A stretch of DNA of 64,000 bases from Nereocystis luetkeana (taxonomy: Eukaryota > Sar > Phaeophyceae > Laminariales > Laminariaceae), in NCBI GenBank assembly GCA_031213475.1, contig JARUPZ010000014.1, positions 2,480,001 through 2,544,000 of the forward strand, in the 5' to 3' direction. The stretch's first letter is position 1. Each line of letters starts with the position of its first letter. Shown piece after piece: positions 1 through 64,000 of the stretch. The notes under the pieces were generated by a model that made no database searches, had not been told where the DNA came from, and saw only the letters and a program-made list of their open reading frames with translations. A program made the translations under genes and the position numbers.

Positions 1-2140
1 AATAATGGCAATCGAGGGGGCGTGATAAGACACCGGCTTGAAAAAATCGAGTATACAAACGGCTCCCGGACGTTTGGAACCGGCTTGGTTGGAATGGCTG
101 GTGTGCGCGTGTTCAGGGAGGGGATGGCTTAGGGGGCGGATAATTATTGCCAGTAACATGGATGGCTGTAATCGTAAGACCATAGAGGGGAGGGGAGGGG
201 TGGATACATCTACCAGGGGGGCGGGGGGGGTCCTTGCTGCAACCCATTGACCACCAGCGACCACACCACCGCCGTGGGCCGTTGTGACGAGACTGTTATG
301 AATGTAAGTCATTGTTATTCCATGTGTTGAATAAATCCGGGTTGTGCGTGCACACTTGCTTGCACGGGTGCTTGTTTGTACCATGCACCCCTGGATGTTG
401 GTGTGCCCCTTTCATACTCCCGCACGCCTGTGAGTAAGCAGAATAACAAACACACCTTGCGTTATTACTATCAGTACTACAAACACGTGAAAGTAGGAAG
501 TTTTCTGGGAGGCTTCTTCAAATAATCCGTATAGCCGGGACGACAGGGGACTGCTTAATGAAACTTGGTGGCTGGAAGACGAAGTCAATGGCCAAGCACT
601 ACATCAGGGCTACCTCTAGTGGAAAAACGCATGGTTGAAGAGGAAACACCGCCAGAGTCACGCCGACGCCACATAGCGAGCTACCACTGTCGTCTGAAGT
701 TGAGATATAATTCACAGCGTGTGCGGAAAATAATTGATCCAAAGCTCACCAGGTTTGTGTGAGACGACTCTGCGCCTGACAAGTGGTTAGCTGCAAAGAC
801 AATCCAACGGCACAATGATGTACGGGCGGGACCACGGGCCGGCGCAGGAGGTCTAATCCAATCCGTCACTGGCATTAAAGTGTCCACGGTAGGGAGACTA
901 CATTATTATTACTGTAGAAAAAATGCGGATCCCATCGGATGGTCAAAATTTGGCACAGAAAATGGAACCGCGGATTGTATCGAATTGCCTTTTGGGATTA
1001 GTATCGCATAGTGGTCGCCCTTCTTCTTTACGCTCCCTAACATCGTGAGCAGAGTTGGAAACGAAGTTTTTTAGACTATCCCACCCACCCGGCAGCAACA
1101 CGTATTAACAGGTTTCTGTACCCACGGTCACATTTGCGGGTACCAGCTCCGCGCCGAGTTTATGATACGCTTGCTAAGCGTCCACTCGGTACGGGGGGAC
1201 ATACCAGGCGATGACCCCCTCCCGGCGCAGGAGGCCTCATCCAGTCCAATACTTACATCAAATGATCCACGGTAAGGAGGCGGAACACGTTATTAATATC
1301 AAGAGTATACTGGTACTACAAATGTTGGAAAAAATGTTGTGATACTGGTACATAATAATACAAGAGGTCAAAAGGAGTGCCTGGTACCTGATGCAATGCA
1401 TCATGGCTTGTGGCTGATATGCGGACGCTCGTGGCACTTACGGTTTGTGGATCAACGTTCTCACAGAACGTGTATATCGAATTGTGGGCGCTTCACCCTG
1501 CGTGGCTCAGCGTTCAAATCGAAATGCGGACGCTTCACGCTGCGTCGCTCAGCTTTCAAAGAAACGCGCGCATCGTGTATACGTCTCCAGTCTCGCATTG
1601 CGCAACAAGGGGATGGGCCTACCTGTAGGCAGCTGGGCGAAACTTAGTTTTTTGCACGTACTTTTCGCGCACGAGTCAGTCGGCTGTTGATGGGTGCACG
1701 ATACCCACGATTCCGGCGCTTGGCTCAAAAGTGCTTAGAGCGCGCAGGGGACATGGTGTTCCTTACTGTAGGTGAGCGTTAACCAATTAATAGGGCCTCC
1801 TTGACGGAAGGGCCAAACGTGTCCAGTTCAAAAGTAACACTGCATGCACGAAGCCCGTGTCTAAATAAAAGCACTTGTATATGTTCGGATTGGCAATTCC
1901 CAACTCGGAGTCTAACCTTAGCCAACACCGACCACCCCCAACCCGATCGCCACTCGTACACGCATGTACTAAGGTGACATATATGGGGAACGGCACGGCC
2001 GCGCATGTCGTTGTCGTGTGGTACAATACGAAGCACGGACTGGAATTGAATGATTTTGGTGAAAGAGAGCATACTATATTAGACGCGCATCAAATGGTCT
2101 TTGGTTAAAAATTCAACACTTGGATCAAATTCATTTGATA

Positions 2141-2248
2141 TTACGGGGGGCCATACTAAATAGGACCTACGGTACACACAAAAACCTACATATATTTCGC
2201 TATCTTTACTAGCAATATTTGGTCCTAATTATTATGGCCCCCTGTAAT
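2141..2248. mobile_element. MITE, CCCCGTAATA family
   Basis: Begins TTACGGGGGGCCATACTAAA and ends TATGGCCCCCTGTAA, with the conserved interior GGACCTACGGTACACACAAA and TTTACTAGCAATATTTGGTC. Flanked by TA. Confidence 0.85.
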
Positions 2249-2869
2249 AGTAGAAGAGAGCCTGCGGCGATTGCCATTCGTTGGTGCTGTAGCGGTAGCG
2301 TCCCCTTTTGCACTGTGTACCGCTACCAAAAAATGACGGCCGGCGACATACAGCAGCCCTCAACCCTTTGTTCCAACCTCGTTTTTGCGTTTTTGAAGCA
2401 ACGGTATTGAGTCAGTCTCCTCTGTGGATAGAAAGAAAAGCCTCATTACGCGGAATCTAAACCCACATGACGGCCGCTGAGATATACTGTATATGTACAC
2501 AGCATGCAGTCCTCACAACAAAGCTGCAGTGCAAAACTCGTTTTTCAAGCAACGGCGTTGGACCAGCCTCGCCTGCAGATATACACAAAAGGAGTGCTGT
2601 TAGTACTTGGTGTGCGGATTTCAAAGAAAAATGACAGCCGCCCGCCCGCCCGCCCGCCCGCCCGCCGACAATGCAGTCAACCAACTGATCTTCATTTTTC
2701 ACGCAAACGAAAGATATCGGGCCATCAGCTTCCTCTCTCTGTCGAGATGAACGCCTTGCACCAGTAGCATCGAAACAAGCGTGTCATATTATCGCCATAA
2801 CGACACAGGCGGCGTGCAGTGCATGGTGTTTGTCCACCTTCAGTGAAGGGGAACAAAAAAAAACAAAAA

Positions 2870-3150
2870 AAAACTTCCAGACATTGCGCAGATCACGATC
2901 TACGAGTCATCTACTGTAGATCCTAGTAACCTGCTAGCCAAGCCTGCAATTATGATATAATATTCTCTCCAACCCAGAAAACGTGTTCCTATATAGATGG
3001 TACAGATCATACGGCTCCCCACCCTGCGACGTAAACCAGGTCATACAGATCATACAAATCCTACAGATCAGGAATCCATCTATCCGCCCCAAAAAGGTTC
3101 AGATCATGTAGTGGAAATCGATTATCTGTTCGAGGCGTGAACCTTGCTGC
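2870..3150. mobile_element. GATC-rich MITE
   Basis: Contains CAGATCACGATCTACGAG, GTCATACAGATCATACAAAT and CGATTATCTGTTCGAGGCGT. Shares order and end sequences with the copies at 19645, 34905 and 58545. Confidence 0.6.
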
Positions 3151-4659
3151 GGGGGCTAAAACGGGTGAAACAATGCAAAGCACAAAGAAACAAAAAAAAC
3201 AAACGTCCTGGGGGGGGGGGGGGGTAACGGACGCAAAAAAAATGACAAAAAAAGAGAAAAAATCGCTCCAATAGGAAATACGGGTAAGCAAAAACAAAAA
3301 AAAAAGCACGAAACCATCCCGAGACGACTAGAAGGTGACGAAACAGGGGGGGGGGAAGAGCGGAAACCGTCCTGAGGGGGAAAAAAAAGAAAAAAATGCG
3401 ATGTCTCCGTACGATATATACCTGGTGGACGTTTTCCCTCCAGGGCGTTTTCCGTTTTTTTTCGCGGTCACCGCAAGTGGTCCATGCAGGCAGCACGTTC
3501 GACCCAAAGGCGAAAAACCATACCAGATACACAAGGCAGGTCTGGGCGCCTCTAAGTGTGTGTGTGTGCCGACGGAACGCCTTTGCGTGGTGGCCTAAGG
3601 CGGGTACGTACGCAAGCAAGCGACTTTTGGCTGCATCTCAAGAAAGGATATGTCAGAAACCGAATATGCTGCCTTTACAAGTGTGGCCTGGTGCGCCATC
3701 ACGTCTTGTCACTCCACCTTTGTTAATCTAAACCTTTATTTCCTCCCAACCGCATCCATCCAGTACCCCGAGAGGGCCCATTGGAACGCTAGTTAATACC
3801 TGTGCTCTCTAGATAACTTTCTTTCTCACGTAGAGATATTTCTTTCTACAGTAGAGAGATGCCAGGTACAACCTCTGTTGTCTTACACCTTAAGCCTACA
3901 ACCTTTTACCTCCACCGAACGACGCCCATCCACGGCACCCACAGTATCGTGCGGGTCATTCCTTCCGCAGAATTTTCTTCCCACACAAACTATTTCTGCA
4001 GAAACTTCTTTACACACCGGAAACCATTTGTACAGAAACTACTGTATTTCTACGTAGAGAGATGCAAGTTCCGCTGGCTTGCACGCTAATGAGAGTCAAA
4101 ACCTATACTTCTGCCCAACGACATCTCATCCAGCAATACCCAGAAGATCCACAATACCAGATGGTGCTGTTCTTCGTCTCACGGAGATTCCTCCCTAGAA
4201 CGATGCAAGATGAAGCGGGGACGGTACCCAAAGAAAAAAAAAAAGAAGATCCAAAACGACCCGGGATACAGAAAGTTCAGTATAACACCAACCCCACCCA
4301 CCGGGGGTTACACACCAACCTACTACACTGTAGCCTGTGTTGGCCAGACTACGGTCCCATGCGCCGTAAGAGCCGTCAACGATCGACGGCCACCCCTGAA
4401 AACTAGGCGCTCTACAACAGCAAAAACAAAACAAAAACATCGAGGTGTTTTGCACAATGGTCAACCCTTACTCTAGTCACGCGTGACAGAACTGTACGTA
4501 CTCCCCAGTGCACGACTTAAAACGCGCATTCACCCCCACGCTTACCGCCCGTAACACGAGCGTAAGATCATCCCGCTAGCGACACGAGGCCCACCAAAAA
4601 TGACTGCGAAGCGGTTCCTACACCCGAAGCCCACAACGAGACGCGACATAAATTTCTGC

Positions 4660-5199: not shown

Positions 5200-8100
5200 C
5201 TGCATTCAGGCGGAAAAAGACGGATCGGACCGTAACAAGCAAGCGACAAAAATACATCGAGAATAAGAATAGAAAAGGGGTTACGGAGCGCCATCGGGAG
5301 AGACGGACCCTCGAGGCGCATTCCAGTATTTGTCGACGACTTGGCCCAGCATCGACTACGAGGCTGATAGTCAACACTAACTCCTCATGACATCCCAAGA
5401 CACTCCGAGAATTTTCCCAGGTGGTAGGGGATATAGGGTTGTTAGGGTTTAACGGCAAGGTCTATGCAGCCCTCGTGTGCACTCCGGGTACGTCAGCATT
5501 GCAATCTGACGAAGCATTAACCCTTTTAGAACTCCAGTCCCGTTTTGGGGACAAACCAGTCAAATTCCAAGTAATTTGTCACCAATGGTCCCCAAAACGA
5601 GACTGCAGTCCAAAAAGGGTCAAGTACAAGAAACGGGGAAAATGGCGAGGCTTTTCTTGTTTTAGGACGGTTTTTACTTCAGCATATGTTTGCGGTGTTG
5701 GCATTCCCTTTCTTGTCATGCCTCTCACAACGTTTTTTCATGTACTATCCGTCGAGCGACAAACGTTAAGACCGGTGTCGTTGTCCGGTGGTTCAGTCAG
5801 CGTTTCGGAAAACGCTTTCTTCGCTGCTACTTGAGAGTTGAGAGAGCCGCGGGATACACACGCGCGCGCGCAACGCCCCGCCATGTTTTTTTTTATTGCG
5901 TAAAGCGTGTACAAGAGAAGCAAAGTACACAACCACAAACAACTGAGCCGCCGCAAGAGGGCGACAGTGTTAAGTCACAACGAGCACCAACCGCTGGTGG
6001 CATGAGAAAGAAGGATTGCAGCATGATTTCGTTGCGCTCAGCGTTCACCCTGTAGATACCGGTTGCTGCCGTCACAGTTTCGTACAGAAGCGCGTTTTCA
6101 CGGTACTCGCACGGCACACAAAGAGCAGGTACAAATAAACACTATTGGAACTATCCAGTCTAGCCTACGAGCACAACACCTCCAGCGGTGAGCCTCACAA
6201 AGACACAGACCGAAGCGCCGAGTATCGATAAAAACGTGGAAAGCGAAGGCGATGCGAGACTTGATACGCCCCAAGTTGCAAGGCGCAGCAGCAGCGATGT
6301 CAAAGCGGGGGAAAAAACAGCGAGGTCCCAGCGAAGCGCCGCACGGATGAACAAAGCGTGGAGAAGGGGAACGCAATGCAATGGAGGTCAAGTAAACCAT
6401 TATAGGAAACCGACCACTTTCAGGCGCGTCAATGCCTTTTCCGGCCTAATTATACCAGATTTAGTGTAGGGGGCGGTCAGTCAAGGGGGTCTCCTATGAT
6501 ACGATGGCAGTTTTTATGAATACAATACGATATCGACGTGGGAACAAAAACAGCAAGGTTCCCAGCAAAGCGTCGCAAATTACCGAGCCAGCCGCACGCA
6601 CGCGCCGATGTGGGGATCCCCCCCTCCTCACCTCCCACTTCACTTCCAGCATGCTCACTACCTCATACCCCATCGACTCGTACAGTTGCACCGCAGGCCA
6701 GTAGGAAATATCGACGTGCAAATAAACCTGCAAAAAACGCCGCGGATTTCAAATCGAACCGGGCAAACATGTCAAGCCAAAACAAAAAAAGGTAGGATAG
6801 CCGTCGCCAGGAAGTCGCGCAGCAGGATATTAGTAACAGTCGTCACCTTGCGTGCGTTGGTGGTCTCATCGCCATCATCAAAGGAGGCGCCGTCGATCCT
6901 GATTTATGTATCTTCGGAGATTCGGCGATTCGGAGATTTATCGCGATCAGATGGCTGGATATCTATCTGATGGAAAAGTATGTTACAGCGATTTCGAAAG
7001 AGGCAAGTACCCCCTAAAAAACAAGGCGCCGTGTAAGATAGAAGGTCATTTTCGCTCGTAGTTCAAATAAAGTAAAACATAAATGGCGGTCACTCCCCTG
7101 GAAGCCGACAGGTATAGCCAGTCAGAACGAAACGGTCCAACACGTCAAGACAACACTTTTTTCGTCGTTGTTACACTCTCGCCGGCAATACAAGCCCCGT
7201 TCGATACTGTATCAGAGTGCTACTACGGGGGACCATAGTTAATGGGACCTATGGTATATACAAAAACCTGTATATTAAATCATTTTTACTAACAATGCTA
7301 TGGTTCCCCGTAATAGGGGGGTCATTGAGTGGCGGTCCACTCCAAGCTCACAACAGAAACGAAACGTCAAGTACGTCGAACGCAGCAGTACGGTTTTCTA
7401 AATGGTTAGAGTGCCGAACGGGCGACAGTCGACGAAATCAGCAGCCACCGTGAGGCATGGGGCCTGCCCACACCACCGCGTGCGACACCTGACATCGAAA
7501 AAAAACGCACCGCGGGAGAGCTACTCCGGACGTTTTTTCTTCCGGGAAAACGACTACCAGGTACAGTAATTAAGGCCTATTAATATTATACCAGTAGTAT
7601 TTTCGGTTCTGATAGATGGATTTCTCAATTTCCTGATTTTTAATTTTTGGATTCTCTACTGTAGTGTGTTTCGTATGCTCTGTGGTAAAACAGGAAACTT
7701 GGGAAAAAATAGCGTGGAAACGAATTGGGAAGCTAAAATTTCCAAACGCTTATCTCTTTTTCCTCTTGTTCGTCTTCAAAACAAAACCAGGAATTTCAGG
7801 AAAAAAAACTTGTTAGATAAAAACGGAGGCCAAGGCCAATACACGGCCGACATATAAAGGTACCCAAAACGCCGACACAGAAATGTACCTCAGGATAGGC
7901 TATACACGGCCGACAGGCAGGTGCTGAAAACGCCTTATTCGGAAAGAAACCTCGGGATACCTGAGTGTGCCCCCAGTCTCGGGCCTGCTGCTCGCACCGC
8001 AACATGAGCTTCTTCGCTAGCCCTTGCCGCCGCACGCTAGGGTTGACCAGCACGTTACTTATGTAGGGCATCACAGGACCGGGCCAGGCTATGAGCTGGC

Positions 8101-11100
8101 GAAGCACGGAAAACAATACAAACGAAGCGAGTAGGGATGGGGGGAGGGGGTGTACTCATTATCATGCACGGGCGTAGTCGTATGACCATAGACCCTCGCA
8201 TCCCTGCAATGCCGGGACGGAGGGAGCACTTCGGGTTTTCACCGACCAGACAGACATTGGTTGCGCCAAGCGCGAAGCGCCGTGAGGTGTCGGGCGAGTC
8301 GCATGACGGGTGGGCTGCATCCTACTAAGAACCGCTTTTGAGGCGGATTTTCTTGCATATGGATCGCAGGGTCAATGTGCGGTGAGGGGGGGGGTGTATT
8401 CAGGGCATGCATGGCCGTAGTCGCATGATCATATGGCCATATACGTTCGCACTTCTGCAAGGGAGGAACGGAGCACGTCGGGTTTCCACCGAAGGCGTTT
8501 CGGACAAAAATCGTCAGACAGGGTTGCGGTCGGTTCTGGGACTACCGCAATACGTGCGCGTGAATTGAAAGAACGAAGACATCCGGCTGTTGATGGCGAC
8601 GCACGGTGCGGCGTGGTGCGCCGCTGTGTCTCAGGCTTGCTTGGGGTGAGTTGACCGTGTTGAGCCTGTTGAGCGTTTTCTCGCGCTGATTTGTCTACAC
8701 ACAGCGGTTGAGGCAACATTGCGTGCTTTTTACCCAAGGCTGATGAAATAGAGGGAGGTGTGTGATAATTGTATCGGGATCGACTGCCTGTCGGAGAAAA
8801 GTTTCGTGGTCGACTGCCTGTCGCCTTTGGAAGAAGCTGCGTGTGGTGTGGTGTGGTGCGGTGTGGTGTGGTGCGCCGTGTCGGAGCAGCTGCGGAATGA
8901 TTTCTCGCCGCTCTTCGTCGATAGACAGCGGTTGAAGCGATTGGGCATTTTCTTCCCTGAAGAACACGGGGAGCTGGTCATGTCATCTGCTCTCGCTGAT
9001 CGTTTGTGCGACAGCCGCGACCGACCGTCAGTCGTGCGCGAAACCCTTCTACAACACCCCCCCTCTAAAAGTACTCGCCTTGGCCTTCAACACAACGCCC
9101 ACCGCAACCGCAATTATTCAAAGTAGTGTTAGCTAGCCTCGTGCTGCAACACAATGCTCATCGCCACGCAATTTTTCAAAGGAGTGCTTGGCAGGGTACC
9201 ATATGCACCTGTGGGCAGGAAAGCTACTCGGGTTTAACCCACCAACAGGTATGCACTGCCTACCCTACGAAGGACCGTTATTATCGCCCTGCATTTCCCG
9301 ACTATCCTTGATTTTTTTTCCTAGAGGAGACTTACGTGAGCGTCCCTGATTTTCTCCCTCCCTGTTGTTTTTCCTGATCTTTCTGGGGGTTTATTTTTTT
9401 TTCGAGACAAAAGAGGAAAACCAGGAAAAGAAAAGAAAGGAGCGGCGCTATTTTTTTTTTTATTTTTTTTTTTCCATCCCATTCATTATCTTCGCACATC
9501 TTCTTCTCTCTCTCCTTCCAACTCGTAACTCAGATCCGGGGTCACATAGCAGGCTCTTCTCCCCCCTTCCCGCTACGGTACGTGCCTTCATTTTTATCGC
9601 GAGAAGATTTCAGCCTTTTCTTCCCTCGTCGACTCGCATCGAATTGTGCCTACCCACGCTGCAAGGCGCTCTCAACAATTGAATCCCTTTTTTTATTTTT
9701 GCAAATAAAGTCAAAGTCCGACCCTCCTAGGGCTCGAACCCAGGACTCAAACAAGTAGAATTCGAGGTTAACCACTTGAACCACCGGGGCGACCGGCTGA
9801 TATGAAGCAGTCCCACACCGTTTTTTTTTACCACAAGCTGACGCCCAACTCCATTCACACATCAACAGTGAAAACAATGTTAGGCGATGTATGGTGACAT
9901 GTTAACAATGCGTTAACCGTACGCGATTTTCCCCCCGTCAACGTACTATGAGGGACCATACTCAACAGGACCTACGGTAAACACAAAAACCTACATATTT
10001 CGCTATTTTTACTAACAATAGTTGGTCCTATTTACTATCGTCCCCCGCAATAGCAACGTACAATTTTTCTACAGTAGGTTCGGGAGGGACAAGGCCTCTC
10101 TTTTGTCTACATAACCTGCTTCCGGGGAGATTTTTTTCTTCGGGAAGCGTCAAGCTCTTTTTCGGCGGCCTTGGTACACCAGTTTTTCTAGCGCGTTAAG
10201 ACCTTTTTCGGCCTGAATACACTGCAGTTTTTCGTGTCGGTGGTCGGTCGGTCAAAGGGGGTTGGCCCACCCTTAAACCTGTCCACCACCGAAAACAATA
10301 CCGCACACAAATTCACAGTACACCTGGTATACCAGCACCGCGTAACACGTGAGGGTAACACCCCCCCCCCCCCCCCCGGACGAAACTTAAGGCCGGTTTT
10401 CTCGACAAAGAAGGGCAGTGCAAACGTCGAGAGAGGCGTTTTGATGGGAACATCTCGACGACATCTTCTCAGACCCGGCGTTTTTGTTGATGGTCAAAGC
10501 TCACCCTTCATGCGACTCGCGCAACATCTCACGCCGGTTCGCGCTTGCTGCAAACAAGCAATGTCTGTCTGGTTGGTCGGTGAAAACCCGACTCGCTCCG
10601 TCCCGGCATTGTAGGGATGCGAGGGTCCACGGCCATACGACTACGGCCACGCATAATCACGAGTACACCCCCTCCCCCCCCCCCCCCCCCCCCTCTCTCC
10701 TGGTTTTGGACAACATCGGCTCTGAAATTGGTCCCAATAGGAAGTATGTGTGCTCTATTGTACCTTACCAGGTACCTGGTAGTATTTATGGGAAGGGGGG
10801 ACATATAAATGAGGACCAAATCTTCTGAGTAAAAATACTTCAATATGTAGGTTTTAGTGTATACGACGGGTCCTGATTACTATTGCCCCCCGTGGAACAT
10901 ACCGCAGTAATCAGGACCAAATCTGCTGAGTAAAAATACTGTAATATATAGTTTTTAGTGTGTATGATGGGCCCTGATTACTATGGTCCCCCGTGGAACA
11001 TACCGCAGTATTCAGGACCAAATCTGCGGCGTAAAAATACTGTAATACAAGGCGCTTCGCTCAGGAAGGAAAAAAGTACATCAAATTATGCGAAGCGAAC

Positions 11101-14100: not shown

Positions 14101-15318
14101 ATAGTGATTAAAATATCTATCTGTGGATGATCTATCTGTAGATGATCTATCTGTAGATGATCTTTCCGATGTGTGGAAGTATCGCAGTGGTGCTGCAAGG
14201 TCTGCTACTACCATGGGGTAGAGGCTCGCTTGCTCGCTGACGCGGACGCAATTTTTTTGGCGCAGCAAGCGGCCTCTTTCTTATTTGCTTCGCCTTAGGG
14301 CCGTTATTATCGAAGAGCGTTTTGTTGGAAAATGCCGGATTTTATCCTGATTTTTGTTGTTGTTTCCTCGCGTATAAAATATAATGTTATCTCTTTTTCC
14401 CTCTTTTTCCTGATATTTTCAAGAAAATGGGAAACAAGCAAAAAAATTCTTCGACAATAGCGGCCCCTGATATACTATCTAAGATACTACCTGGTAGCTG
14501 TTTGGGCGCCGTGTCAACAAGGCCACTTTCGGGCTTCAATTACTAACGTTGGGCGCGTCAAGGCCTCTTTTGGTCTGAATCTGCTATTAATAGTTTCGGG
14601 CGCGTCAAGATCCCTTGAGGCGTTGATTTACCAGCTACTAGCTTTGGGCGCATCAAGGTCACTTTGGGCCTTAACTTACTAACGTTGGGCGCGTCGAGAC
14701 TTCTTTAGGCCTGAATCTGCTACTAATAGTTTGGAGGGCATCAAGACCCTTTAAGGCGTCATTTTCCTAGGTTTACGCTCGGCTAGGCCTCCTTCGGCCT
14801 CAATATACCAATAGTTTGAGCCACTTTGGGCCTCAACTTACTAGTTTTGGGCGCGTCAGAAGCCTCTTTAGGCCTGAATCTACGAGTTTCGGCCGCGTCA
14901 AGACCTTTCAAGGCCTACATTTAATTGACTAGGTTTAGGCGCGGCAAGACCTCGTTTGGCCTGAATATACAAGCCTCTTGGGCGCGTCAGGACCTCTCTC
15001 CGGATTCACCCTTCACACTCCATCAATGGGGGGCATATTAATGACCCCACGGTGGGCCAAAAAAAACAGGTACCCCCCCCTATGTGTGCACAGCATATTT
15101 GGTTCTGATGACTATTGCTATGCTCCCCGGTAATACTTTGTTTAACGCATCAAGGACTACTGTATTGGCCTCAATATACTAGTTTTAGTGTGTGTGTGTG
15201 TGTGCGGGGGGGGGGGGGGGGGGGGGGGGGGGGCGGTCAGTCAAGGGGCCAAACGGCGGTTTCCTGTTATATCCGGTAATGAATATGAAAGCATGGCATC
15301 TTTGTTGCAGACCAGACC

Positions 15319-24300: not shown

Positions 24301-25147
24301 CCTCTGTCGTCCGAGCTCTTGCAGCCGGCGCACGACGAACAACATATCAATCGTTGATCGTGCGGGGCGGAAGCCGCACTGTTCCTCGGGGAGTAGTTCC
24401 TCGGTCTCGCAGTAGTTGCTGATACGTACTCGTAGTTACCTGTAGTTTCGCCAGCCAACTATTATTGGGGACCATACCTGGTAGTAAATAGGGCCTACGG
24501 TACAAACACAAACCCACATATTTAACTATTTTTCCTAACAATATTTGGTCCTATTTACAATGGTCCCCCGTAATATTAATAGTATTAGTATTATTAAATT
24601 AGTACCATGGTATCAAATACCCGCGGCGACTACGAGTACTGCTGTTGTAAAAGTTGTCATGGCGAATTACACACTCGTCTGCATTTCACCCTCGTCTCAA
24701 CTGAACTATCCAATCGCACAAAAGCAGCAACAGGAACCTATTAAAATACCACATGTATGTACAGCAGCAGTAGTGGCAGTAACCTAACAAAACGCACCTA
24801 CTTTTATTTATTAATACCTGGTATGTTCGAGTAAAACGCCGTGATCCGCTTATATCATGATATACTCTCTCACCAGTCATTCAGCTCTTCGATGTCATCT
24901 TCTTGAAAACTGCCATACAGCTTTGCCCGGCGCCACGTCTCCCCCCAAATATCGACCCCTCTCACATCATCCACGTTCACGGGGCCTTCGTAAAACTCCT
25001 GGAAGGCTAACCCGACCACACTGTCAATATCCGTCTCCTGCATTGGCCGGAGCGTGGTTCCTTCGGGCAACGGCTTCGGGGCGAAAGTAAACGCTTCTCT
25101 ATCGCTTGTTGAGTCCACACCGCCTCCTCCTCCGGCGCTCCCTCCTC

Positions 25148-47300: not shown

Positions 47301-50300
47301 AGAGAAGTGGACGAGTGTGCGTGTGCACGGTCGATCGATCTCGGAGCTCTCAAGGCTCAAGACCCCCAGCAAGCGGGGAAAACTAAAACTCGAACAAAAA
47401 GCTTTGGCTGAGCTCGAAACGGTATTTCGAGGTTCTCTGCCGCATGTAAACCCGAGATAACTGATCCAACGGAAACCCACCGCATACTACTGATACCGCA
47501 CTGCTTGTACTGCCGTAGCATATTGTACTGCTGCTGTGGCCTACTCGCTGCAGGCGACTATGATACCGATCAGCGACTCGGTATACACTACTGGCTACTG
47601 TTATAAGGATTACCTTGGGCTGGGTAATCGATCGATCTTTTATCCCTGTTGTTGTTGTTGTTGTTCTCACATTAACTCTCTGACGAAGGAGTCCGTGGTC
47701 ACACAAAGGTGCTGGAGCCCTAGGAAGATCCGAAAAACAAAAAAAAACGAAAATTCGGCTGCCTCAAAATACACGAGACGGAAAAAGCGCACACAAGATA
47801 AAACCAATGTGCAAAACTGAACTAACATGGCCGCGGGTATATCCTCTCAACTATAATATAGAAGAGTACCCCCGTTCCCACCACTAACCAACTCGTGGCT
47901 GCTGACTACAGCGGATGCTGTCTGAAGTGCTGCCTGCACCGTACGAAACGCACGGTAGTCGTGAAAACGAAAGAGGAACACACCTGCCTGCTATCTGGAG
48001 TGCTGTCAGAGTGAAGACTCGCGGATATGCAGTGAAAAAAGGAGCAATCGAACCTTACTACCACACGAATATCAACGATCGCCATCTCTTCCTGGACTGT
48101 CTGACACAAAAAGGTGCAGCACAGTTATGATACCACGTCCCTGATAATTGCGTAGGTTATTCCCCATGAAGGGTATACAACTCGTTAAACTACGAAGACC
48201 AGTGACGAGTACCGGTAGATACTATTCTGCCTCGTGAAAAACAATACCAGGAAAAAACAAACTATGACTGCTTCTCTCGTGATGATAGTGTGCGCGCAAA
48301 TCATGGGTCTCCATGCACCGTCTTCCTGCCGCTCTTCATGGCCGCATCATCGCCTTGGCCCAATCCACCCGCTCCTTTCCGCGTGCACTCGTTGCCATTC
48401 CCTTCCAGTCGTTTCCCTTTCTCCGTCATCCTGAAAAACAAAATGCTCCTCGCACTTGCGGTTCTGATCTGGGAAATAAAAATTCTCGCGCAGGGGGAGG
48501 TCAATCCGTCTCTTCCCCGCACGTCGACGCTCAGTCTCCCTCCTCCCTCGTCGTCGAATCCAGCCTCCTACCGGCGCAATAGACTGTGCCGTAGTGTGGC
48601 CTGTGGTGGCGCCTGCCTCCGCGCACGGACACCCCGATTGAGCATTGCTGCTCTGCCGCAGCTGCCTAAAAAGACGCGCGAATCGTAGGTCTCCGTGCCT
48701 GACGCACCACGTACGACCCAACTCTACTGCCGCCTGAGCGTCGCGGCCACAGGCAGCAGCAAGAAGGTATCACTCCTTGAGGGTGAGTCCGGCCTTACAC
48801 CCGCCAGAAAGACCTACCCCACTCGCTATTAGCCTGATAGGGCATGCCTCGCAGCATTCCTTGCCGAGGCAGCGAGGGGAACGGAAGTATAGACGACTAG
48901 GTATGACGTTTCAACTATATAGCTCAGTAGGTAACACCTTCACATTTGACGACGTCCAGGTCACGGGTTCGAACCTCACTTCGAACGTTTATTTTACAGA
49001 AACGCTTGCGCGTGCACACCTAAAAAACACATCTCCCTGGTTCCCCAGGTAATGAAACGAAGCGGGTAGGTCAGCGTACGGACGTATGTATACGGTTCCG
49101 ACGCCCCAAAGATCCCGCCGTTCAGAGGGGGGGAGAGTGTTATAAGGATTACCTTGGGCTGGGTAATCGATCGATCTTTTACCCCTATAGCTCAGTAGGT
49201 AACACCTTCACACTACTGCTGGGTATCATGGCAGCTATCCTTAATATCATGTTATATACCCTTAATAACGTGTTTAATCATTTTTTATAAATGTATGAAA
49301 TACGTCAGCTGTGAGTTCGACTGCTTAAAAAGTTGATACTCAACTTCGCAAGGTGCGTTATACGTCTGGTCTATATCCCATTTTTTACTGAATTTATAAC
49401 ATAGGTTGGGTTGGTGTCGGTTGGCGAAAGAACATGCCGCTCAGTAGGTGAGCTAGACGCTAGACAACTATTAATAGGGTGCCGTTTTTTTTTTGCCGGT
49501 TGGTCACAGCTCGCGATCGATCTACATCATTTGTGCGGGGTGGAGAATCAGAGGAATTATCGTACCACGTAGTGTTTCTGGTAAGGCACCCACGAGGCAG
49601 TTACATAGTACCCTCAATGCTGTCTCTGGAAGTGACTACACCGGAAAATAAATCGACTTATTGGCGCTGTCATCCATATGCAAGTCCGCCTCACAAGCGG
49701 TTCTTAATGGGATGCAGCTCACCCTTCATGCGACTCGCCGAACACCTCACGGCGCTTCGCGCTTGGTGCAAGCAATGTCTGCCTGGTCGGTGAACACTCG
49801 ACGCGCTCCGTCCCGGCATTGTAGCTACAGGCAATGCATGATATCGAGCACCCCCCTCCCGTACAAGATAAGCGTCGAAAGGCGGGGGCTTATCAACAAC
49901 ACCAACCAATAATAATGCTCACGTACTGCCCCCGTACAAGAAAAAGCGGAGGTACGTTCAAAGTCGTCGAAATCCTGTGCGCTGAAACTACACAGTTCTT
50001 ACACGCAGTACATTCCTGTGATGGTGGGGACACAAAGAGCGAGGACAGGTCGGGTTCGGATATATGTTTGGTCGGGCACAATGGTACAATGGCACAATGA
50101 AGAGTCGAGCCTACGGCACGCTTCGATTACTCATGGAAGGTGGTACAGCAGTAGAGTTACGAGTATGCCAGGTACTGTACCTACCTGGTACTGTAATAAA
50201 CAGAGCCAGCTGTACTGAACTGGTAGTAGTGCCTACGTACATGCGTACTGAGTACCGGTGTAAAGCTTGTCCCTTCAGGATCCAAGCAGCATCACTTTTT

Positions 50301-51480: not shown

Positions 51481-52639
51481 GTGATGGATGCTGTGCTGGG
51501 GGGGGGAGTGAGCGATGGTATCGCACTGTTGCTGCTCCTTTGTTTTTTTTCTACTCCAAAAAGAACACCTATCCTATACCGAACCTTTAGTTTGGTGTTC
51601 CGCCGGACGAGATATACCCTGCTCTGTCGAGGACTGGTATGTTGAAGCGCTAGATGCAGTCGATGGGCCAGCCAGGTGCCGAGGTCCACTCTCCGCGAAG
51701 TCGCTGCTGTAGGTCTCATCGCTGAGCGGCAACCAAGCCAAGGACATCGGAATTTGATATGGTTTCTAATCCGTAAGATTTTTGGACTCTTCGGCACTTT
51801 GTCCTTTTGCTGGGAATATATCGGTATCGTATTCGGGTACTGCCGCTGCTGCTACTGCTTCTGGTGCTACTGCTGCTTCCTCTGCTGCCTCTGCTGCCTC
51901 TTACTTCTATTAATACTACGCTACGACGACCACTATTGTGCTTCTGCTACTGTACTACCGTTCACTACTGTACTTAGTAAGTGTGAATTGCAACAGATGG
52001 ACCTGGTACCACCCATATAGCATCTGAGCATCTGAGCATCTGAGCTATACGATTGAGACGGCTCTCCTTTGCGCGTGCTTCTGCAGCACAAAATGTACAC
52101 CACAAGCAGTAACTGCGTACCAGGTACCGGTATTTGTTAATATTACTACAGCAGTAGTTGCTTCCTCGTCCGCGAAGCCTAAGAGAGCCTAGAGCCTAGA
52201 GCCTACTCACGTACCAGTATACAGCAGTAGAGCCTACTGGTAGAGTTATCGTGGACGTACAGTGAAACTACTGCTGCTACTGCTTGTATCGGTACCACAT
52301 CACCTCGCCAGCAGACAGATGACAAATACTCCAGGTTATGCAAGATATACCTGGTACTGTAGTATGTCGTGCTCGAGCGTGCATTGCAAAAAAGGGGCAC
52401 GTACGGGGGAGCTTGCTGCGATTGTTCGCTGCACTTGTAGGAGTACCAGGTTCGAATTGGTCCTCGTAAATGTGCATGCTGCTCCTGGTACGCTTACACG
52501 TTTGCCGTTTGTTTACCTGAAGACTACCGTTGTTCCTCGTACGGTTGCTGTTATACGTGGTGCCAGGTATGTCCCAGGTACCAGGCATGGTGGTAAGGCA
52601 CACGTGTTGTATCGGTGGTATAGTTCGGTATACCCTCTA

Positions 52640-53253: not shown

Positions 53254-54956
53254 TGTGTACGAGTCTCGCATGTCCAGCACGCGACACCTCTGTATACTGA
53301 ATACGTACGAGTATATGAAGAAAAACAAAAATGACACGAAGCTGTGAGATGTGAGGCCTATGCCAATCGAAACGCAAAGTTTCCATAAAAAGTTGAATTC
53401 CAGAGATACCCGCCAGAACATTTCAGGTACAGCTTGCCGTGAGCACGATTCCTCAAACAAAAGTTCCAAACATTTGGAAAACCCTTATGGGGCCGATGTT
53501 GGGCCAAGATTGGCTTCAGAATAACTCAGGCGGTATGTTTATTTCGAAGCGGCCAGATTCCGAGTCCTCGGCAGACGTCGATCAACTAAACCAACGGCTG
53601 CGTCATGAATTCTGAACGGAGTGCGCTCGTTAGGGGCTCCGACCCACCCTAAGGTCACCGTGTTCGCACAATGGCCGGTGATATGTGACGGGCGCTGGCT
53701 AGCTGACCAGGCGTATGATAAAAAAAAATAGGCCGCTGGTGTGCACATAACACATGACGAAATTTCTCGATCCCTCTCGGACGGCAAAAATAGAGTGTCT
53801 TCAGGTTTATGGGAGAAGATCGTAGGACGCCGCCGGCAAACTCTCGCACCCTAGCCCATGGATCCACCTGGTATTCTCGAGGCCGTCATCTATACTACTC
53901 GTTGGGTTTGCCCAACACCAAGAGGGTTGCCCGAGGGTTGAGTCTGCGTCGAGATCGAAGGTCTACCGTCGCATGAACTGTTTTTTTATCAGCGTGTTGA
54001 CGATTACAACATGAAACGAATTGCGCCGCCTTCAGCCGTGTGAAAAAAAAAGCAAGAAGAAACAAATCAAACGTGTTTTCCCTTTTTTCCCATAGCGGCG
54101 GTACGAGAATATCTTCAGCTATTTCGTAATAGCAATTTTTTTAAAAGTAATCTTTGAAATATCGTGTCTCCATTGTCATCGGTCTGAGTCACGTTCACGT
54201 ATTGCACGACAAATACATCCAGTCGTAGCTTGCCGCGCGAGTTCTTCTAATAGCGAAGGCTGTGCGGTATGTTGTGCTCGCATATGCTGCTGCTGCACTG
54301 TTGCTTTGCTGCTATCCTTTATCGTTTATGCCGCTTGCTGGTTCTGTCTCCCACTCTCATATATAGATATTCGTACGTAGTTTGTGGCCACGCAACTTGC
54401 ACGCACGGTCGAAGTCTATTTCAGTGTAACAGCATCTCGTACACGTGCGTATATGCGATTATCTCTGTTGCTGTTTTCTTTTTTGTTGTTCTCACATTTT
54501 CCGTAAGTACAGTGCAGTTAGTTCTGAAGTGGGATTTCGGAGAAGTGAAAAGTGAAAAGTGACTACCAGGTACAAAAATGGGCGATTACGTACGAAGTAT
54601 ATATATGCGGCATCGTCCACTGCCTGCTGGGTTGGGGGGTGATAAGTCTGGTGTCCGCACTATCGTATCGTTCTGTCTTCCCTCTGTTTGATGTATCTGG
54701 ATTGCTGGCGCGTGTATGCTGGGCTTGTCGTACGCAGTACGGTGGCATGGCATTCATTGCCTTATCTACTCCCATTACTGCATTGCAACGTACTGTAGTA
54801 TGTGTGTCATCGTGATGTGACCACAGCAGAGCTTGCACATATCTGGATGAAGAATCAGCACGGATAGTGGGTGTGCTGGATGTCGAAAACTCGTCCAAAG
54901 TCCACTGTCGAAATCCTCGAAGGAACCCACTCCTACTGACAGTACCCCCCCATGTT

Positions 54957-56780: not shown

Positions 56781-57689
56781 GCTTCACCGTGAAAAGCCTT
56801 CTTTCAATCGACAGCCTCGGTTGTTTTTGCAATTTTTTGTTTCGAAGGTGTTTTGCGAGCTACCAAGTATACTACACGATCGGGCAGCGGTTGCTTTCGC
56901 TCATGAGACTACCTACTGCAAAATGACACTTTCATCTCCTAAAGTAAAAACATGCCGTCAGTTTGCGATAACTCTTCCGAAATGCCCGCAAGGTGTTACC
57001 AGACCAGTAGCTACGTACCAAGCCTGGTATACGAGTAAACAGTCACCAGTATACCATGCAGAGTAGGAGTAGCAGTAGTATTAATAGCGGTTGTTGTGGT
57101 TGCTGTTGTTGTTGTTGTTGTTGTTGATGATGATGTTGTTCTCGCAGGAAGTCATGGCCATGATGCAGTCGGTGGTCACAGGACAGGCTCTAATGACTCT
57201 GGGGTGGGAGATTCACCTCCGGAGCAAAAACAAAACGGGAAAAATTACCTTGTACTGGCGTACCAAGTATATTGCCATTTCATTGCCTGGTACAAATGCG
57301 GTCGTTTTCATAGCAGGCTGTTGGGTAGTTTCAGTTCAACCGAGTACCGTATACCAGGTATATGTAACACGCAAGGTTACACTCACCCTCGGCTGCTTTT
57401 CGCCACGAGGGGCAGGGTGCGAGCGCATATATAGCGAGGTGTCATGTGGGAAATAAGTCGACAAGATATTTCCGTTCAACCATCTTCTGTGTGTTTTGTT
57501 CGTTTTTGTTATTATTAATAGTAGTTGTTTGCTTTCGTTGTTGTTTTTTTTTTTCTCTGTTACGTTTGTTTGTTGTTTCCAGCGGTTATGGTCGTTATTT
57601 GTTGCTGTGTGTTGTTGTCGTTGCTGTGTGTTGTCGTCGTTGCTGTTGCTGCTGCTGCAGTTGTTGTTGTTGTTGTTGTTTTTATTTCC

Positions 57690-58865: not shown

Positions 58866-59963
58866 CTTTTGCAACACACCGCTTACAGTAGGATTGATTT
58901 CCGAGTCGATTTCCCCCGAAACTAGGGCGGAGCGGGCACGAACAACCTTGGAAACATGCCGAGATGGTTCCGTAGACGGTACTAAAAGATCTCTCGGCGG
59001 TTCCACTCTCCTCGTTGTCGCGGAATTCAGCTTGGAAATTCGTCTGAGGTGGTGTGGTGTGATATCTTGTGTGATACCTTGTGTTTTGTACCTGGTATAC
59101 GGTGTACCTGGTATACGGTGTGCCAGGTATCATACAATAGGATCATGGTCTATTATTACGATATGATTGAAGGGAAAGAAAAGCGTTGAGTTTGCACGGG
59201 GGTGCTAAATCCGAACAGGCTGTTTTCGGAAGGCTCTCTCTCTCTCTCTCTCGACCAGATCTCATTTCCGAAAACGCCTCCCCTGCTGTTGATGATGACG
59301 ATGTTCTCACATTACCTCACTTCCCTGGACTTGTGCCTGTGTTCACGAAAGCAGGCTGTACCAAAAATGCATCTCGATGGGAGAAGACATACAAAAACGA
59401 ACTGTTAATAGTGCGCACACGACAGTACCATTCCGGACCATACCGGCCCGTAAGGGAGACTGGTGCTAACGAGCTGTGGTGTGCACCATCCCGCTGCCGC
59501 TTGCAGCAAAATAACACCAGGAACATATCCATGGTACATATCCATGGTACTAAAATGTAGACTCGAAAAAAAAAAAGAAAAAAAACTCGAAGAGAGAGAG
59601 AAGATAGAAGAAGGAGAGGGAAAAAGGAAAAGGAAAAAAGGAAAGAACAGTTTTTCGGTATTGGCAACCTTAACCTTCCCGTTCTGGAAAAATCGAGCGC
59701 TGGAAAACGATCGCACCCCTGCTGTGCGATCTCAAACCCCTCTTTTTACGGTAGCCCGCCCCTGGCTACCAGGTATAATATATTGGCGTGCCATTTCATG
59801 TTGGTGTTACACATTTCATACATATAGCGGGAGTATCAGCTTGAACCTTCGAATGTACGGGCGTGTTTTTTCAACCGCCGGCTGATCGGTGCTGACCCGA
59901 TGTCGATGCCCACAGCCAGCGAGATAGGCCAGCCCAGCAAAAGACCATGTCTACATGTATACC

Positions 59964-59966
<3 letters not shown>

Positions 59967-60002
<36 letters not shown>
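59967..60002. repeat. TA microsatellite beside a TACCAGGTA motif
   Basis: ATACCAGGTATATATATATA onward. The dinucleotide run grows directly from the TACCAGGTA palindrome. Confidence 0.9.
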
Positions 60003-60006: not shown

Positions 60007-62342
60007 CGTAACATGGCGCAGCATATATAACAGACTTAGCTGGCCTGGGGTAGGCAGACTAGTCCCGTGTTAGAACCTGCTGTCTACTCTCGGTAGTATG
60101 CTTACTGTAGTCGATGCTGTAAATCGTCATCTTGTGTCCTGCACCGCACACTTCCACCAAGGCAGGGAGGCTGTACGCTCGGGTGTTCGTCCAACAATCG
60201 GACTCGAGGAACAATCCTGCACATGATAACATATACCAGGTACATATCCACGTATCTCCCGATTTTTCGTAGAAACAAGATAAAACATAGTGTGTGTGTT
60301 GATGCCATATGATGTGAGTTCATATTCTCACAATCTATTAATGTACACAGCAGATGGCGTTCGAGAAAATTCCATTCTTGGTTTGGTTTTGGCTTTTTTT
60401 CCGTAACTCTCTAATTACTACTTGGTTTTAGTGTGAAGTAGGAAAAAAACTGAGCGCCACCGAAAAAAAATAATCTTAAAATGTTACCAGGTATGTACTT
60501 TCATAATAACCCGAAAAAAATAATTATTTTTAACTTGATTTCAGTATAGAAGGCGTTATTACAGAGTCTATCGACGATTTCTCCAATATTTATTTCTCCG
60601 ATCCGGCAAACTCCAGATATTTCGTGCATTCTTAGAAGACTTCAACTTTTTTTCCCTCTTTGATCAAAAATTTGTCGAAATAAAACATGCTCTGAATAAA
60701 ACTTTTTCCGGTCAATTTTCCGAAAAAAAAAGACTGACGTCATCATCCACGGCCACTTTTCCAAGTTCTTGTTTTTCCCGAAAAGTGACCTCACGATTCC
60801 GGATTACGACACATGTCGACCAAGGATTTTCCACCAATCAAAATTTACAACCAAAAAAATTGACCAATCAGAAAACTGCGGGCACGAAATCCCTTTCAGT
60901 AGTACCCGGTACGAGTAGCTGGTACCCGGTATTTTTTTATGGGGACTACGCACCAACTTTACCTTTTTTTTCCCGGAATACTCTGAATACTCTTACTTTC
61001 GTCCCTCGGCCGAGGATCGTTTCGCGCGCTCTCGGCTGCGGGGCACGCGGGGGGCATGTGAACTGTGGAACTGGTGTACTCACGTACAGATCACGGCAGA
61101 AGCGTGGGTCCTGGCCGGGCTCCTTGGGCCGTGTTCTAAGCGTTCAAAGTCGCGGAATCAGGCTAAGAACCTCGCGGAGGTCTCCCGCCCAGCTAGAGCC
61201 AAGCAGGTCCATGGAAACCCCACAAGTTTATACGAACTACAAACCTACAAACCCTTCGAGTCCTGCTGTACACCTCGCACCAGGCACGCGTTTTGATAGC
61301 ACAACTAGCACCGGGCACGCAGCCTAGCAATGACCATATCGCACAGGACACGTGCGTAGTCTGGTCGGGCACGCAGGGCGGCCGCGTGTACGCCACGGCG
61401 CATGTGTGACTCGGGCTTTGGAAGTCGCCCAAAACTGGCAAATAATTGCAGGGAAACGTCCTGCCCACCCACAGCCAAGCAGGACAATAGGAAACCCCAC
61501 AATTTATTTTTTGACTCTGCTGCTGGCTGCTGTTGCCGCTGTAGCATGGCTGATCACACCGTCCCTGAAGACCTCTACTGTATGTGGCAGCCACGGAACA
61601 TCAGTCGCACATGAAGCTCTTTCCTGTTGTGACAGCCGCGTACGGTATGTGTGTGCTTGCCGTGCGAACTCACGTATTCTCAGATCCAGTTACTTTCATG
61701 CTGAGGGGCAGGACGACCGTACGAGTGCACCCTTCCTCGGGATTAAAAAAAAATATCTGCGCCGCCAAAAACTAGCAGCAGCGGTACAACAGCAGCGCAG
61801 TGCCACCAACGCTTGGCAAAACATTGGCTTTTGTGACAGCCCACGGTGCTTTATTTTGTGTTCGTCGTATGTGTGCGCAGACAGTGCTCAAGAGATAAGA
61901 TACTGCATGTTCACATATCCACCTACAATTTTAAAGTCAAGCACACGTCGTCGTCGACCCTCATTCTGTCACACGGCAGTACCGCCAGGCACACTATCAA
62001 TACTGTGCAACAGCAGTGCAGTTAATAGGGACGCCTGGTTGTGCTGATGGCCCCCACCTTTACTTTCGCGACACCCCCGAGATTTCAAGTCAACTACACC
62101 CCGAGGGGGAGCCTTTTATGTATATTTTGGTCATATACTATTAGGTACTTCGTATATATGTGTTGTTGTATTGGCCCATGTTGTCGGGGTGCCACGGCTG
62201 AGCTCACGGCACACGGCGCGTTTTTTAGCTGTACCCGTATGTCTCTTTGTCCCTCCTTCGTTTTTTCTTCTTCTCTTCAACGCTGCCCCATCTGTTTGGG
62301 GCGAAACAGTTACAGCAAGTTACACACGTCGGACTGATGACG

Positions 62343-62378
<36 letters not shown>

Positions 62379-62444
62379 GCTGTAGACTGTCAGTAGTTTT
62401 TGGCTCGCCATTGTGAGATGCTGTGCAGGATCTGTGCGCGTATT

Positions 62445-62556: not shown

Positions 62557-62574
62557 ACAGGCCCAACCCAAGAA

Positions 62575-62740
62575 ACCTGTCCTACAGTAGAGCATGCAGA
62601 TTGTGCATAGGGCTCGCACGCGGCAACATGAGCTAGATCATACAGAGCATACAGACCAGGAATATATATAGCTGTCCTGAAATATCTGGATCATGAAGCG
62701 GGAACGATCTGTATCTAATCTGTCCGATGTGGAAATATAT
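62575..62740. mobile_element. GATC-type MITE, short copy
   Basis: GGCAACATGAGCTAGATCAT, ACAGACCAGGAATATATATA and ATCTGTCCGATGTGGAA follow the family order. Confidence 0.55.
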
Positions 62741-62809
62741 GTAATTAGTGTGGGGTCATTGTTCAAGTATTTAGTTAGCTGGAGGCCCAGGTACAGCCTT
62801 GGTGGTAGC

Positions 62810-62995
62810 ACTGTGGGCGGAAATATAAGGACCGCTTCGTCTTGATATTAATGTCCAAACGCCCCGTATATTTCCGTTCAGAATGGTGTTGTGGCCTGAA
62901 GTATAGCACTCCGGGCGTAAGTAAATATAAGGACCGCTTGGTCTTGATATTAATGTACAAACGCCCCGTATATTTCCGTTCAGAGTGGTGCTGTC
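62810..62995. repeat. 75-bp hairpin family, two units
   Basis: GGCGGAAATATAAGGACCGC ... CGCCCCGTATATTTCCGTTC occurs twice, with near-identical centres (TTGATATTAATGT). Confidence 0.75.
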
Positions 62996-63589
62996 GCGGC
63001 ATTCGGTCTTCGCTTTATCCAACTCGTAACATACTGTAGTTTGAGATCGATGAGGGCTCTCTTTTGCGATCAGCCGGAAACTGTCACCCAGCGCTTCTAC
63101 TGTAAGATTGTTGGAAATTGATATGCAGTGTTCGGAACGATACTATTAATTATAACGAGAAAAACAACCACCAGGTATTAAAAACGGACACGTTATCGAT
63201 TTTTGATAGATTGAAGCTTTCGTCCAATATCTGCTTTAAAACACAGGTGTATTCCCGGAGATGGAAGGCAAAACTACTGCTGTACGTTCATCGATATGAT
63301 ATACCGAGACTCCGATATTTCAAATGATCGAAATAAATGGTCGATACGATATCGAAATTCGATATTTCGATATATCGAAAGTAATTATCGATACGATATC
63401 CAGCGCTAACTACTACGGTACGACCCCCGTGTTACTTCACCCTCGTCGCAGAGCCGACTGCTTCGTATGAATCGATACGAGAGTGGCCACCCTGTGTGAG
63501 AGGTCTGATGTGATGCTTGCTGCATGCTGCACGCGTCTCGTACAACTCCTCTAGCTGAAGTACGATGTATCAAACCGTAGTATTAGTAG

Positions 63590-63880
63590 GAATAGTAGAG
63601 AGAGCGTTGTTTTTCAGCGCTCGATTTTTCCCAGAGCGGGAAGGAAGGGAGGATGCTTGCCAATACCGAACAACAAGGGAGGCGTTTTCGTAGAGGGAGG
63701 CGTTTTCGGAAAGGTTTGGTCGAGAGAGAGAGAAAGAGAGAGAGAGCCTTCCGAAAATAGAATGCTCGAGTTTTATGTAGCAACCTTACCGTTGAGAGAA
63801 AACGACCGCTGAAAAAACGATCGAACTCCTGTGCTGTGCAAACTCAACGGTCCTTTTTCTCTCCACGGCGGTTTCGATGC
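63590..63880. repeat. Dispersed repeat shared with 59215-59290 and 59650-59750
   Basis: GAGAGAGAGAGCCTTCCGAA, AACGATCG and TTGCCAATACCGAA recur in inverted form near 59220-59750. Unassigned family. Confidence 0.5.
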
Positions 63881-64000
63881 CGAATGTGCCGTCCTTTCCC
63901 TAACTAATCCAGCAGCCTGGGCCCAGGCTGCTTGGCGTGACCGGTGGCCGATGCTGTAACTGTAAGTAACCGTCAGTTGCTTTCGTCGATTGTTCTCTCC

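Follow-up and report, generated by a model that had tools for sequence, protein, structure and literature searches.

TACCWGGTA in Nereocystis luetkeana, a probable excision footprint of a TA-inserting DNA transposon

Footprints of Tc1/mariner transposons, which cut and paste at TA, are described as 2-4 bp in length (PMC7913693). Sleeping Beauty cuts are reported to leave 3-nt 3' overhangs (PMC7827188), and its excision scar is given as TAC(A/T)GTA (PMC3432063). For the plant mariner system Stowaway/Osmar5, the footprints are described as 1-4 bp fragments of the inverted ends (PMC1925063), Hsmar2 is said to leave non-canonical footprints (PMC3770610), and in rice most excisions were imprecise, with 8 of 94 perfect (PMC4423477). 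The piggyBac transposon is described as targeting TTAA and excising seamlessly (PMC7351741). A transposon survey of Ectocarpus reports 17 Mariner-Tc1 families with 11,912 copies, in a main text that uses neither "footprint" nor "excision" (PMC12477816). Here, we describe the palindromic word TACCWGGTA (W, A or T) in a stretch of 64,000 nucleotides from Nereocystis luetkeana (assembly GCA_031213475.1, contig JARUPZ010000014.1, positions 2,480,001 to 2,544,000), referred to as the window, and in the genome around it. Our data make it probable that this word is the excision footprint of a TA-inserting, TA-duplicating cut-and-paste DNA transposon working like Tc1/mariner.

Counts of TACCWGGTA in window, genome and sample

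An earlier note on this DNA had reported that TAC...GTA palindromes are strongly over-represented, and this is borne out by counting. Based on the trinucleotide composition of the window itself, 0.72 copies of TACCWGGTA are expected and 30 are present (17 of TACCAGGTA and 13 of TACCTGGTA; Poisson log10 p about -37). The other words named occur in numbers near those given by the note, namely 11 for TACAGCAGTA (8) and TACTGCTGTA (3), 9 for CTACWGTAG, and 5 for CTATTAATAG, and its coordinates deviate from those found here by 0-4 bases (7555, 15501, 17831, 36048, 43723, 52348, 57352, 59960, 60234). The genome-wide count it proposed is likewise far from expectation: TACCWGGTA occurs 182,395 times, about once per 2.5 kb, in the 465,085,209 bases of 1,987 contigs, which contain the window, vs 1,744 times for the reversed pattern used as control, and a hand calculation from uniform composition gives about 3,550. 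Twenty 10-kb stretches, taken from 20 contigs, have a density of 0.385 per kb, near the genome mean of 0.39. These stretches and the window make up a sample of 264 kb, to which the following results refer unless stated otherwise, with counts given per site.

Within this sample, TACCWGGTA is found at 107 sites (2.6 expected), TATTAATA at 70 (1.7 expected), TACAGCAGTA and TACTGCTGTA together at 30 (0.8 expected), and TACWGTA at 130 (42.6 expected). For TACWGTA this excess is modest (3-fold), in contrast to the strong excess of the other three. CCWGG stands isolated among the words of the form TA-N5-TA, with a score of 34, the next one listed scoring 9.2. The middle base on the forward strand is A at 49 and T at 58 sites (p 0.44), and five nested pairs of TACCWGGTA share a TA, vs 1.6 expected at mean occupancy. 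The over-representation of TACCWGGTA is real and strong.

Insertion at TA and target preference

Each site with 100 bp on either side was aligned to the rest of the sample; matches less than 200 bp from the site were dropped, and spanning relatives were kept only if at least 9 of 12 bases matched on each side. For TACCWGGTA, 4 of 107 sites have a spanning relative (20875 and 24475 in the window, L012:3808 and L026:7056), and all four have at least one relative with exactly TA in place of the word; for L026:7056, 8 alignments show TA and 12 show other lengths or bases. Control words of the form TA-N5-TA have relatives at 158 of 975 sites, with plain TA in 3 of these 158 (TACAGACTA, TACCTCGTA, TACAGAGTA), which differs from 4 of 4 by Fisher p 1.3e-6. 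TACCWGGTA is inserted exactly at TA, on few sites, with the target TA duplicated as in Tc1/mariner footprints, both in these comparisons and in the insertion census described below. The suggestion of the earlier note that the words are footprints of an excising element finds support in both. The copy it had placed at 24476, inside an arm of a miniature inverted-repeat transposable element (MITE), does lie there, at 24475, and was the key lead.

The same comparison gives a plain-TA relative at 4 of 7 sites for TATTAATA (13 of 189 for controls, p 0.001), which supports this word as a putative second footprint. TACWGTA has one at 1 of 9 sites (1 of 140 for controls, p 0.12) and TACAGCAGTA/TACTGCTGTA at 0 of 2 (0 of 154 for controls); the alignments do not show these words to be footprints, and they may be regarded as candidates. 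An unfiltered census of insertions and deletions between repeat copies lists 449 insertion loci, 60 of them of the form TA..TA, with TACCWGGTA at 2, TATTAATA at 6 (6 of 66 six-base differences) and TACGACTA/TAGTCGTA at 9, the latter in one repeat family. The motif-centred test with controls is preferred, because simple repeats and local arrays account for much of the unfiltered census. A recurrent 6-bp difference (TACGACTA, TACGGCTA or TACAACTA vs TA) lies within a repeat that holds GGTCATACGGCCATGCA, at 8176, 10632 and 36728 of the window and in L003, L013, L014 and L026, and is probably inherited in that family.

A common MITE, with 105 bp between flanking TAs and ends TTACGGGGGACCATAGTTAATAGGACC, served as a test bed. 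It is the family of the window copy at 41032-41140, and further two-ended copies lie, among others, at 18357 and 19535 of the window and at L014:652, L014:8192, L016:9065 and L026:167. The census pattern, an arm GGGGACCA...GTTAATAGGACC with any 5-33 bases replacing TA, is unbiased by insert sequence, and it finds 223 places genome-wide with insertions of 3-31 bp at one TA (reversed control 0). Insert classes were taken from the first 100 of the 223 places in contig order, of which 48 form TA...TA, 19 are MITE-internal or tandem, and 33 are other. A length of 7 bp is found for 17 inserts, among them 8 of CCTGG+TA and 7 of CCAGG+TA (15 in all), and the remaining two are TACACAGTA and TACCTCGTA. 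Shorter inserts of the form TA..TA are TACATA, TACGTA and TAGTA (4 each), TACWGTA (3), TACTCGTA (2) and TATTAATA (1). These counts refer to places and not necessarily to independent events, since the eight TCATA cases, of which one contig has six, have the appearance of a single variant that was duplicated. At three of the 100 places two or three CCWGG units share TAs, with differing middle bases in one. At these places a single TA seems to have been hit repeatedly. By the pairing logic discussed below, with a 3-nt overhang TTA, the scar of this MITE itself would be TATWATA, a word that scores 2.7-fold.

Compared with other TAs, the flanks of the 107 sites differ in composition mainly at positions -1, -6 and -7 and the mirror positions (0.22-0.33 bits), with a slight signal at -2 and -3 (0.06-0.08 bits), and come near background from -8 outward (at most 0.04 bits). 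With the motif removed, they read as a symmetric WA....R-TA-Y....TW around the former TA. A weight matrix over 8 bp on each side tells the 107 sites apart from 14,434 other TAs (area under the curve 0.87 in cross-validation). TACCWGGTA marks 0.7% of all TAs; among the best-scoring targets the share is 11.6% in the top 1%, 10.3% in the top 2%, and 6.4% (5 sites) in the top 0.5%. TATTAATA has a different target preference, TAC-TA..TA-GTA, of which the C at -1 recurs in weaker form at TACWGTA and TACAGCAGTA sites. These differences suggest that two or more kinds of transposase were at work.

The flanks also bear on whether all copies are members of one longer ordinary repeat family. A few copies do lie inside repeats (24475, 20875, 59089/59105), but the flanks of the 107 sites carry little in common beyond 8 bp on either side, where their information is at background, and only 4 of the 107 have a spanning relative; we see next to no chance for a single family.

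Versions of TACCWGGTA with one mismatch lie between 0.5-fold and 5.6-fold of expectation. The most enriched of them are mostly transitions, which is what neutral scars would show as they age. The versions with one transition (69 sites) have the same flank preference as the intact word, in weaker form. This matters for the idea that selection maintains TACCWGGTA as a genome-wide control site, in the role of a regulatory or protein-binding motif. The word is palindromic, frequent and sharply defined, and a weak symmetric flank preference would suit a dimeric site. However, such a motif leaves unexplained the plain TA in paralogous repeats, relative to which all 4 testable sites carry an exact insertion of 7 bp, and the equal use of A and T in the middle, and doubled and tripled copies sharing a TA as well as decayed versions that are in excess and retain part of the flank preference speak against it. 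We consider this explanation, which the earlier note had offered in the form of sites for a DNA-binding protein, very unlikely.

Tandem copies sharing a TA (the five nested pairs) would in turn agree with a 7-bp word CCWGGTA that spreads through replication slippage or templated repair, with no transposon involved. Yet most copies are single and stand in unrelated flanks, and slippage provides neither a first copy from TA, nor an equal A/T middle, nor a target preference within 8 bp, so that we find it highly improbable. The proposal that the words seed TA microsatellites fares poorly as well, since only 1 of 13 (TA)5+ arrays adjoins a copy of TACCWGGTA.

The putative footprints of the window, two sites of other words and the MITE copy are as follows.

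7555..7563, strand (.), TACCAGGTA putative footprint, motif match
10766..10774, strand (.), TACCAGGTA putative footprint, nested, TA common with the 10773 copy, motif match
10773..10781, strand (.), TACCTGGTA putative footprint, nested with the 10766 copy, motif match
14488..14496, strand (.), TACCTGGTA putative footprint, motif match
15501..15509, strand (.), TACCAGGTA putative footprint, motif match
15627..15635, strand (.), TACCAGGTA putative footprint, motif match
17702..17710, strand (.), TACCAGGTA putative footprint, motif match
17831..17839, strand (.), TACCAGGTA putative footprint, motif match
20875..20883, strand (.), TACCTGGTA putative footprint, empty-TA relative at window 10906-10986 (1 alignment)
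24475..24483, strand (.), TACCTGGTA putative footprint within a copy of the 105-bp MITE; relatives: 5 alignments with plain TA, 2 of other length
24815..24823, strand (.), TACCTGGTA putative footprint, overlapping TATTAATA at 24809, motif match
31319..31327, strand (.), TACCTGGTA putative footprint, motif match
33945..33953, strand (.), TACCAGGTA putative footprint, motif match
36048..36056, strand (.), TACCAGGTA putative footprint, motif match
40836..40844, strand (.), TACCTGGTA putative footprint, motif match
43723..43731, strand (.), TACCAGGTA putative footprint, motif match
46640..46648, strand (.), TACCTGGTA putative footprint, motif match
50182..50190, strand (.), TACCTGGTA putative footprint, followed by an overlapping TACTGTA at 50189, motif match
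50719..50727, strand (.), TACCTGGTA putative footprint, motif match
50730..50738, strand (.), TACCAGGTA putative footprint, motif match
52118..52126, strand (.), TACCAGGTA putative footprint, motif match
52348..52356, strand (.), TACCTGGTA putative footprint, overlapping TACTGTA at 52355, motif match
54564..54572, strand (.), TACCAGGTA putative footprint, motif match
57352..57360, strand (.), TACCAGGTA putative footprint, motif match
59089..59097, strand (.), TACCTGGTA in a 16-bp tandem repeat, probably copied along with the repeat, motif match
59105..59113, strand (.), TACCTGGTA in the second unit of that 16-bp tandem repeat (first: 59089), motif match
59767..59775, strand (.), TACCAGGTA putative footprint, motif match
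59960..59968, strand (.), TACCAGGTA putative footprint adjoining a (TA)17 array (whole 59960-60001), motif match
60234..60242, strand (.), TACCAGGTA putative footprint, motif match
60485..60493, strand (.), TACCAGGTA putative footprint, motif match
36276..36283, strand (.), TATTAATA, putative second footprint class, in a MITE copy; relatives: 11 alignments with plain TA, 2 with another two bases, 1 with a substituted word
62583..62589, strand (.), TACAGTA, candidate word of Sleeping Beauty type; relatives: 2 alignments with plain TA, 1 with a substituted word
41032..41140 (109 bp including both TAs), strand (.), 105-bp MITE with perfect 24-nt inverted ends TTACGGGGGACC..., TA-flanked, unhit member of the test-bed family

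A possible mechanism and the search for a source element

Based on this dataset, we hypothesize a mechanism by which one word could arise so often. The transposase would cut one strand at the tip of the element and the other strand 5 nt inside, so that after excision each flank would end in a 3' overhang CCAGG (or CCTGG). The two overhangs could pair at C.G, C.G, G.C and G.C, with a central A.A or T.T as the sole mismatch, and ligation and mismatch repair would then yield TA-CC[A/T]GG-TA, with 7 added bases and A or T in the middle at random. TATTAATA would be the scar of another such element, with a fully self-complementary 4-nt overhang TTAA and a different target preference. A third and a fourth scar might be TACWGTA (3 nt, CAG/CTG, like that of Sleeping Beauty) and TACAGCAGTA, neither being shown. 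The same pairing logic may thus cover the two supported scars, TACCWGGTA and TATTAATA, together with the Sleeping Beauty word. The element, its 5-nt staggered cut and the Tc1/mariner identity of its transposase are what we infer from the scars. The footprint reading is backed by several independent tests, and that TACCWGGTA works like a Tc1/mariner footprint is a stronger claim than that it is one.

Two variants of this scheme find no support. A 3-nt overhang CCA with a one-base overlap would yield an identical product but be held by no base pair, and its predicted words TACCATA/TATGGTA are at chance (37 vs 36.0 expected) and absent from the 100 listed MITE-site inserts. A general rule, by which all self-pairing cores are enriched, fails as well. 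Palindromic 5-nt cores free of internal TA reach 6.6-fold enrichment if the central base is W, compared with 1.1-fold if it is S, and the excess is confined to CCWGG and CWG. Individual words carry it, as would be the case if individual elements had made them, and palindromes in general do not. Further, TACTCGTA/TACGAGTA occurs 38 times (9.5 expected), and together with the TACGTA/TACATA inserts it resembles further scar types, with cores that are not all self-complementary.

Several observations weigh against the proposed origin of TACCWGGTA. Once CCWGG is set aside, the remaining 5-nt palindromes with central W reach 0.83 of expectation, and the 3-nt ones reach 0.95 once CWG is set aside; CAGCAG would need two mismatches, and CTCG/CGAG falls outside the self-pairing logic. 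Related words are in excess, too, namely TACCSGGTA (5-fold), TACCGGTA and TACCAGTA (3-fold each), TACCAGGGTA (13-fold) and TACCATGGTA (11-fold, 3 sites), so the scar product is either not wholly uniform or decayed; the last four words may be imprecise products. The 5-nt core, read from the scar only, exceeds the 2-4 bp described for Tc1/mariner (PMC7913693). Usable relatives exist at 4 sites of TACCWGGTA only, two of which also show other lengths or bases, and three of which lie in MITE copies or in a repeat aligning with them, the fourth being in another repeat. CCWGG makes up only 2 of the 32 seven-base differences in the unfiltered census, and the 15 cases of the MITE census may be non-independent, as MITE copies can duplicate together with a scar. 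Finally, no element with TACCWGG...CCWGGTA ends was found in the approximately 264 kb that hold 107 footprints, elements above 4 kb or overrunning a stretch not being visible in this search, and hence the link to a transposon is drawn from the scars.

The search for a source covered terminal inverted repeats with TACCWGG, TACCWG, TACCW, TATTAA, TACAG and TACTG ends at distances of 40-4000 bp (best 25 per search), and TA-flanked inverted ends in general at 60-1500 bp (64 pairs listed). Among the matches listed there is no convincing element with CCWGG ends. On both strands TACCWGG occurs 341 times, 214 times followed by TA; of the other continuations one is found 4 times, inside a repeat, and three are found twice. 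The pair 18944-22529 was discarded as repeat-internal: it lies within a larger inverted repeat of the window (18819-22654), and its TACCAGGCGGATT occurs 4 times, 3 of them with the same upstream sequence. The matching ends of this large repeat are 3.6-3.8 kb apart.

L022:8651-8751 (TATTAA...TTAATA) was rejected as a source of TATTAATA, since seven further places with a similar end or core, four of them with full TTAA directly before the end, point to a TTAA-flanked MITE of piggyBac type. The family has ends like CCCTTTTAGAACCGCAGTCCCG, and we take it to be piggyBac-like by these ends. TTAA stands at the junction in five of eight places, directly before the end at 5521 of the window, in L013 (two copies), in L019 and at L022:8656, whereas related copies with no full TTAA lie at 42442 of the window and in L010 and L014. 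The L022 copy sits inside a TATTAATA.

That footprints far outnumber visible elements, as if insertions were nearly always removed, would be expected if the scars came from a domesticated or programmed excision, comparable to the internal eliminated sequences of ciliates, and not from ordinary transposon jumping. However, tandem scars sharing a TA and the target preference require repeated new insertions, as a mobile element provides them, and programmed excision appears unlikely. Returning to ordinary transposition, we may tentatively envisage one self-sealing lineage with a 5-nt stagger and self-annealing ends, whose donor sites close again to a single exact product. Moving on in a hit-and-run manner, it would have left orders of magnitude more scars than copies. 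As part of the same tentative picture, this lineage might have hit a large part of the best targets, about one in ten of which would still bear a readable scar.

Other features of this DNA are listed for completeness. Pfam, applied to 10 of 218 long reading frames, identifies reverse transcriptases in 2 and no match in 8. One is an open frame of 536 amino acids at 22825-24435 of the window on the minus strand (PF00078, E 5e-29), and a shorter frame at 26706-27386 is similar to it in sequence. Rfam gives 0 matches on the window. A degenerate tandem array of 39 copies of the unit TGTGAAGGTA occupies 41697-42086, and four identical 57-bp tandem units (100% matches) lie at 38980-39207. Runs of at least 8 C or G are frequent in the window, with 149 overlapping occurrences of CCCCCCCC or GGGGGGGG vs 3.7 expected.

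Comparison with known transposons

If the proposed origin is true, about 182,000 scars of a single type stand in this genome at TAs that were once occupied, a dense record where excision normally leaves few countable traces. Transposition history, target preference, repair of A.A and T.T mismatches and re-use of sites could then be measured in one genome, even without the elements. Each event would add 7 bp, a frameshift in coding sequence, and about 1.3 Mb in all by multiplication, and the scars would point to a transposase whose staggered cut is unusually long. In the open-licence literature we found no paper containing both TACCAGGTA and TACCTGGTA as whole words, none pairing "brown algae" with "excision footprint", and, among the matches listed, no report of a single natural excision scar reaching such a density.

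With piggyBac there is a likeness in that TATTAATA contains TTAA and that the sample contains MITEs flanked by TTAA with CCCTTTTAG ends. On the other hand, at 4 of 7 sites with relatives TATTAATA adds 6 bp to a plain TA. Seamless excision at TTAA would leave no such insertion, and we rejected an explanation of TATTAATA as a scarless TTAA duplication for this reason.

The likeness to Tc1/mariner as a whole is the proposed cut-and-paste mode at TA. The cores of TATTAATA (4 nt) and TACWGTA (3 nt) fall inside the range of 2-4 described for its footprints (PMC7913693). With Stowaway/Osmar5, TACCWGGTA has in common the TA-flanked sites and the apparent repeated loss and re-insertion at one site; five distinct footprints are described there in one intron, whereas here one exact product dominates its length class (PMC1925063).

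Sleeping Beauty resembles the present case in the TA on both sides, the self-complementary core and, if the proposed mechanism holds, the central mismatch resolved to A or T and the origin as a donor-site product (PMC3432063). Its overhang CAG pairs with itself except for a central A.A, and CCAGG would do likewise, with four G.C pairs around a central A.A. Its word TACWGTA is reported at more than 300,000 places of the mouse genome and, for this reason, proves nothing by itself (PMC4378557). The present case differs from Sleeping Beauty in its core of 5 nt (CCWGG) instead of 3 nt (CWG), and in about 182,000 natural copies as compared to laboratory events.

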